From Methanothermococcus okinawensis IH1 (lineage in GTDB: Archaea; AGJL01; Methanococci; Methanococcales; Methanococcaceae), in NCBI RefSeq assembly GCF_000179575.2, contig NC_015636.1:1527495-1591494 (forward strand): a stretch of 64,000 nucleotides of DNA, in the 5' to 3' direction. Made by a program: the position numbers and the translations under genes. The notes beneath the pieces were generated by a model. That model searched no databases and was not told where the DNA came from. It saw only the letters and a program-made list of their open reading frames with translations. Below, piece by piece: positions 9,617 through 10,388 of the stretch; the stretch's first letter is position 1, and every line of letters begins with the position of its first letter.

Positions 9617-10282
9617 TTAGATATGTTTTATGAGCTCCTGTATGGAACCTTCAACATCCTTGGATTTTACAACACCAGAGGCTAATAAAACACCACATGC
9701 TCCTAATTCAAGTGCCGATGATACATCTTCTCCTTTTGAGATTCCAGCACCACATAATATTTTTACATCCTTGTTAATGCCCCTAACTTCTTTAACTGTC
9801 CCTTCTACAACTTCTGGATTTGCCTTTGACACAGGAATACCTGTTCCTATTAATTCTGGTGGCTCTATTGCTATCATATTTGGATTTAATGCTGCCACAG
9901 CCTTGGAAACACCTATATTATTTGTGCATACGATTGTTTCAAGATTGTAGTTTTTTGCTATTTCTATGGATTTTTCCAAATCTGCCAAAATCATTCTTTT
10001 TTCAGAATGATTTAATAAACTACCATTTAATCCACAATCTTTTAATGTTTCTGCAAGAACATGACCAGTATGACTTCCAGGAGAAACTGCATCAAAGTGC
10101 TGAGCATAAACAGGAATATTTACATTTTCAGATATCATTCTTAAATCTAAGAACTGCGGACATACTCCTATTGATATTCCGCTTTCTTCTGAAACCTTTT
10201 CAGCAGCTTTTGCTATTTTTAACCCTTTTTCTCCTACACTCTCTGCATAAGTCTTGTAGTTTATTATAATGATAGGTTTAAT
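9617..10282 (-). CDS. tpiA: triosephosphate isomerase TpiA, apparent ATT start codon
   Basis: Interconverts dihydroxyacetone phosphate and glyceraldehyde 3-phosphate. The archaeal short-form TIM barrel is complete: [11 protein letters not shown] at the N-terminus, the [13 protein letters not shown] loop, NHSEKR, the catalytic glutamate in [11 protein letters not shown] and the GAGISKGED phosphate loop. No ATG, GTG or TTG exists in frame before an ATG at 10138, which is residue 49 and would delete essential strands. Upstream in frame there is a stop. A consensus-like site GGTGGT (10286-10291) sits three bases before ATT (10280-10282), exactly where ATG is expected, giving 221 residues starting (M)[12 protein letters not shown] may be the true start, or a mutation has removed ATG. 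Confidence 0.88.
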
Positions 10283-10388
10283 AATACCACCATTTTATTT
10301 CTTTTATATTTTATTTTTATTATTTTTATATTTTTATTTATATATTCCTTTAATTTATTGATTTATTTATTATATTTTATATCTTTTT

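Follow-up and report, generated by a model that had tools for sequence, protein, structure and literature searches.

Only a small number of bacterial genes are documented to initiate at AUU, AUC or AUA (collectively AUH). According to PMC5472188, infC starts with AUU in Escherichia coli and with ATC in Streptomyces, and is autoregulated by IF3. In Staphylococcus aureus, ccpN and citZ start with AUA, cvfC1 with AUU, and infC with AUA (PMC13009471). Reporters with the AUA or AUU starts of ccpN, citZ, and cvfC1 reach about 10% of the AUG output in poor medium; strong Shine-Dalgarno (SD) sequences precede the ccpN and cvfC1 starts, which are conserved in relatives (PMC13009471). The Streptomyces gene sigR, which starts at GTC, is repressed by IF3 and retains this start in 32 of 34 species of the genus; a misleading GTG lies inside its SD sequence, and the GTC start keeps SigR scarce with respect to its operon partner (PMC5472188). 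A further gene that does not encode an initiation factor, E. coli pcnB, has an AUU start that limits expression, as cited in PMC13009471. On the archaeal side, work cited in PMC8211752 found that aIF1 of Sulfolobus selects against non-canonical starts in vitro. A literature search gave no account of AUH starts in methanogens or other archaea; most subscription papers lay outside the search, and this absence is weak evidence.

The triosephosphate isomerase (TIM) gene, tpiA, of the thermophilic methanogenic archaeon Methanothermococcus okinawensis IH1 is reminiscent of each of these systems. Similar to infC, it is an otherwise normal gene with an apparent AUU start, but it encodes a metabolic enzyme rather than a fidelity factor with its own feedback loop. 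As in ccpN and cvfC1, a conserved AUH follows a strong SD sequence, and ccpN also concerns gluconeogenesis; the S. aureus starts, however, come from bacteria with IF3 and were characterized by ribosome profiling and reporters, whereas the present evidence is archaeal and comparative. tpiA shares with sigR a conserved non-canonical start and a GTG within the SD sequence, and differs from it in using AUH rather than GTC and in that sigR is a bacterial stress regulator. With pcnB it has in common an AUU start in a non-initiation-factor gene, although pcnB is bacterial and a single gene. A previous, sequence-only reading of this DNA had drawn the parallel to infC, a sound working analogy that does not extend to the regulatory circuit. 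An infC-like loop centered on an AUH-started fidelity factor was rejected: tpiA encodes TIM, and in this genome ATG stands at the N terminus of aIF1, the archaeal fidelity factor.

The tpiA Start Region

The stretch of DNA that was analyzed (the window) is 64,000 nucleotides long and corresponds to G000:C2:1527495-1591494 of a two-contig genome totaling 1,677,455 bases. Its features in the vicinity of the tpiA start are the following.

9617..10282, minus strand: tpiA, triosephosphate isomerase, AUU to stop (221 codons plus stop)
10280..10282, minus strand: ATT, proposed start codon from its spacing and aligned column, presumably read as Met by the initiator tRNA
10283..10285, minus strand: ATT adjoining on the 5' side, a less likely start, 6 nt from GGTG
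10286..10291, minus strand: GGTGGT, SD-like by sequence, spacing, and comparison with relatives
10291..10293, minus strand: nonconserved out-of-frame ATG; its frame is 9 codons long (MVVLLNLSL*)
10389..11207, minus strand: 2-amino-3,7-dideoxy-D-threo-hept-6-ulosonate (ADH) synthase, directly upstream of tpiA (TIGR01949, E 1.9e-128)

On the minus strand, the region reads TAA AAT GGT GGT ATT ATT AAA CCT ATC ATT ATA ATA AAC TAC AAG. The frame is boxed in: an in-frame TAA closes it directly 5' of the GGTGGT sequence, and its earliest in-frame ATG, GTG, or TTG is the ATG at residue 49. The protein is nevertheless an intact archaeal TIM, identified by profile search (NF003302, 326.6 bits against a cut-off of 132, E 7.8e-98; PF00121), with the NYK, NHSEKR, and EPPELIGTG motifs all in place. 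Its closest solved structure is 2h6r, and the nearest named relative carrying the gene is a Methanothermococcus, at 88% identity. These results confirm the earlier description of a complete TIM gene that lacks a canonical codon before residue 49.

The distance from the first G of GGTG to the start codon is 9 nt in 114 of the 166 genes of this genome that have the motif and 10 nt in 30 further genes. In tpiA, the second ATT stands at this modal distance of 9 nt and the first ATT at 6 nt, which makes the second ATT the likelier start. The correct spacing of GGTGGT to ATT claimed by the sequence-only reading thus holds, and its choice of the second ATT, with (M)KPIIIINYK as the deduced N terminus, is supported by both the spacing and the relatives. 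In a 464-kb sample of the genome with 424 genes, tpiA has the top coding signal 5' of any canonical start, which, together with a GGTG-ATT spacing at the mode, argues against a chance observation. For comparison, SD-supported canonical starts were found for 441 of 751 genes in 864 kb of this genome and comprise 374 ATG (85%), 38 TTG, and 29 GTG. A start at the out-of-frame ATG (10293-10291) followed by a -1 shift was rejected, as this ATG is absent from relatives. No Rfam RNA elements were found within the window, which therefore contains no known riboswitch or leader.

Conservation of the tpiA Start in Relatives

The tpiA start regions of the 20 Methanococcaceae genomes with the gene were aligned, and 11 Methanocaldococcaceae loci were examined. 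The sequence-only reading had proposed to check the codon in sister strains; in these related species, AUH is found at the start in 18 of the 20 Methanococcaceae (ATT in nine, ATC in seven, and ATA in two), always 9-10 nt after GGTG. The SD sequence is GGTGAT or GGTGGT in most relatives. The A-U at start positions 1-2 is invariant, unlike the preceding codon, which varies among ATT, AAC, ACT, AGT, and AAT. Sixteen of the 18 AUH genes have no in-frame canonical codon upstream, and in most species an in-frame stop is found within about six codons upstream of the AUH. The other two, L004 and L015, have one extra codon, which places ATT at 10 nt from GGTG, and an in-frame TTG, GTG, or ATG inside or directly before the SD sequence; their starts are ambiguous because these upstream codons could be used instead. 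ATG at exactly the aligned column is seen in genus g4 only, in two species (L010 and L012). In all 11 Methanocaldococcaceae loci, the start is located two codons further in and is ATG or TTG.

A tree of TpiA places g4 outside the main AUH group; in it, three long-branch Methanococcus-like species (G005-G007), which are probably misplaced, fall among the Methanocaldococcaceae. The AUH start would be either ancestral to the Methanococcaceae and lost in g4 or acquired after g4 split off, and it appears to have been maintained across three genera, g1 (Methanothermococcus-like), g2, and g3. The conservation of AUH as opposed to AUG is in itself only modest evidence of selection against AUG, since G occupies 9.3% of the four-fold sites of tpiA and third-base changes are few.

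Other Proposed AUH-Started Genes in the Methanococcales

AUH starts recur in other genes, one of them within the window, an observation absent from the sequence-only reading.

30865..31425, minus strand: putative kinase (PRK03839 family), proposed start ATT at 31425-31423, SD sequence GGTGAT 10 nt upstream

In the window kinase, in-frame TTG and GTG codons overlap the SD sequence. When kinases of this type (N terminus IAITGTPGVGK) are aligned, the start column holds ATA or ATT in each of the 21 Methanococcaceae and ATG in each of the 13 Methanocaldococcaceae. Some of the Methanococcaceae starts are ambiguous because an in-frame GTG overlaps the SD sequence (four species, including the present one) or ATG is the next codon (two species). 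A Rio2 kinase with Rio2_N and RIO1 domains (L270, G000:C2:751899-752861) has an apparent ATT/ATA start after GGAGGTG. Its orthologues start with ATA in 14 of 14 Methanocaldococcaceae, with the next canonical codon at about residue 20-27; the 22 Methanococcaceae loci divide into 15 AUH starts with an SD sequence, three AUC without a clear one, and four plausible GTG starts, and many offer an alternative, SD-less ATG about 11 codons further in.

Three other families have AUH in subclades, and one gene has it in this genome only. In agmatinase, AUA or AUC occurs in eight g1 genomes, and the 13 remaining genomes carry ATG, GTG, or TTG at roughly this position. The g1 orthologues of the EcnA nuclease are mostly AUH-started and those of other genera have ATG; the EcnA-type gene at L069:11695-12312 (minus strand) has a GGTGAAATT-ATT start. 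A NifK-like (nitrogenase component 1) gene at L066:9908-11323 (minus strand) has a GGTGAGAAT-ATC start, and its g1 orthologues have ATT directly after a stop and an SD sequence, with ATG in g2. The glycosyltransferase gene at L144:3063-4226 (minus strand), with a TAG-GGTGAGAAA-ATA start, is the one in which AUA is found in this genome only; ATG occupies that column in the orthologues of G020 and G016 and lies one codon later in G021. tpiA would thus belong to a small recurrent AUH class of the Methanococcales, comprising the PRK03839 kinase and rio2, and agmatinase, ecnA, and nifK-like genes in subclades. As far as the searchable literature goes, these genes would be the first conserved set of AUH starts in archaea.

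The frequency of the pattern was estimated from open reading frames (ORFs) scored in four samples, 864 kb from the M. okinawensis genome and 380-400 kb from each of three relatives, and the rates accordingly describe these sampled stretches. Codons 9-10 nt after GGTG and at least three codons before any canonical start comprise eight AUH and six others in the four samples, against a background of 15.9% (p = 5e-4); one of the AUH codons, L054 codon 64, probably lies inside its gene. Comparing the orthologues of these candidates yielded the clear cases described above. The pattern is seen in about 1% or fewer of the sampled genes, and about 99% show no sign of it. A tRNA scan of half of the genome gave one CAU tRNA.

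Interpretation of the Probable AUH Start

The most probable reading, to which we assign a probability of about 0.88, is that AUH is the real start codon of tpiA. The GGTG SD sequence, at the right distance, would position the 30S subunit and hold it long enough for the initiator tRNA (anticodon CAU) to pair with the A-U of AUU, AUC, or AUA, the third-base mismatch being tolerated. TpiA would then begin (M)KPIIIINYK, with Met presumably inserted at AUH. The tpiA gene of this genome almost certainly starts at AUU, and the AUH codons of its relatives and of several other genes of the order mark this as an old, conserved mode of initiation rather than a recent mutation.

AUU initiation, as put forward in the sequence-only reading, is favored by the AUH codons found 9-10 nt from GGTG in 18 of 20 Methanococcaceae; the accompanying proposal, that the codon serves to limit expression, is the most likely reason why the AUH start has been kept, at about even odds. 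An inefficient AUH start would keep TIM synthesis low for the amount of its mRNA, for instance in comparison with ADH synthase. Low-efficiency, dosage-limiting initiation is suggested by the bacterial AUA/AUU and sigR parallels and by aIF1 discrimination in Sulfolobus. In every species with an AUH-started tpiA, ADH synthase (TIGR01949) is found upstream on the same strand, and in g4 and the Methanocaldococcaceae no ADH synthase was found within the 1.5-kb flank of tpiA examined. Given this arrangement, the weak start may serve to set the ratio of TIM to ADH synthase; the co-occurrence is only suggestive because it represents one phylogenetic contrast and not several independent ones.

The strongest competing explanation is that AUH is used but is selectively neutral, being well accepted by Methanococcales ribosomes after a GGTG SD sequence while the third base drifts. 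The involvement of several unrelated genes, the presence of T, C, or A at the third base, and the shifting of the agmatinase start among ATG, GTG, TTG, and AUC/AUA across the Methanococcaceae would be in keeping with neutrality. This explanation is possible but disfavored: AUH occurs in about 1% or fewer of the sampled genes as opposed to ATG in 85% of SD-supported starts, and bacterial measurements show a strong loss of output. A stronger argument for selection for weakness is the retention of AUH in one small group of genes across genera, and in rio2 across families, while about 99% of sampled genes show no sign of it.

A less likely explanation is translational coupling, in which ribosomes from the upstream gene restart at AUH and a weak codon is enough. 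As coupling would predict, 12 nt separate the ADH synthase stop and the tpiA start in L007 and L008, and an in-frame stop touches the SD sequence in several other AUH genes. The gap is, however, 106 nt in this genome and 45-795 nt in the other species, and with a range of 12-795 nt coupling to ADH synthase was rejected as a general cause.

It is very unlikely that AUH is an internal Ile codon and that translation begins at another non-standard codon upstream or at the GTG of the SD sequence with a frameshift. The third base does vary as in synonymous Ile codons, and every species has a GTG inside GGTG, which in tpiA of this genome is out of frame. In many species, however, in-frame stops leave three to six codons, that is, the SD sequence and the variable codon; the alternative frame ends within about 10 codons in the species inspected by eye; and other lineages have a genuine ATG in the corresponding column of the kinase and agmatinase, in most cases at a spacing of 9 nt from GGTG. 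Finally, although ATT is one base from ATG and g4 has ATG at this column, a recent loss of the ATG in this genome, as the sequence-only reading had allowed, is refuted, and a sequencing error excluded, by the SD-spaced AUH at the same column in 18 of 20 independently sequenced Methanococcaceae species.

If AUH is the start codon, it is apparently conserved in core genes across archaeal genera (tpiA and the kinase) and across two families (rio2). Gene callers restricted to ATG, GTG, and TTG would mis-start or truncate such genes, and would move the window kinase to the TTG or GTG that overlaps its SD sequence. Both near-cognate reading by an archaeal initiation apparatus without IF3 and the setting of enzyme dosage are testable in the tractable Methanococcus maripaludis. 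A more speculative and rather doubtful extension is that AUU, AUC, and AUA form a regulated start class in the Methanococcales, with a fixed small gene set, including rio2, the PRK03839 kinase, and tpiA, co-tuned by aIF1 stringency or 30S availability. If true, archaea would have an equivalent of IF3-dependent control, and rio2, encoding a small-subunit maturation kinase, would link it to ribosome supply.

Additional Observations

Three other ORFs in the sampled stretches are coding-like before any canonical start and may be frameshifted or broken genes: L054:5962-6420; L058:8238-9611, an S-layer-like fragment; and L062:18758-18976 (longer stretch 18680-18976), in which an SD sequence and an ATG are present in another frame. 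In the window, positions 22613-23677 (plus strand) and 55294-56358 (minus strand) are identical 1065-bp inverted copies, probably of a recently copied insertion element, and contain a DDE-transposase-like ORF that has no canonical start near its beginning.
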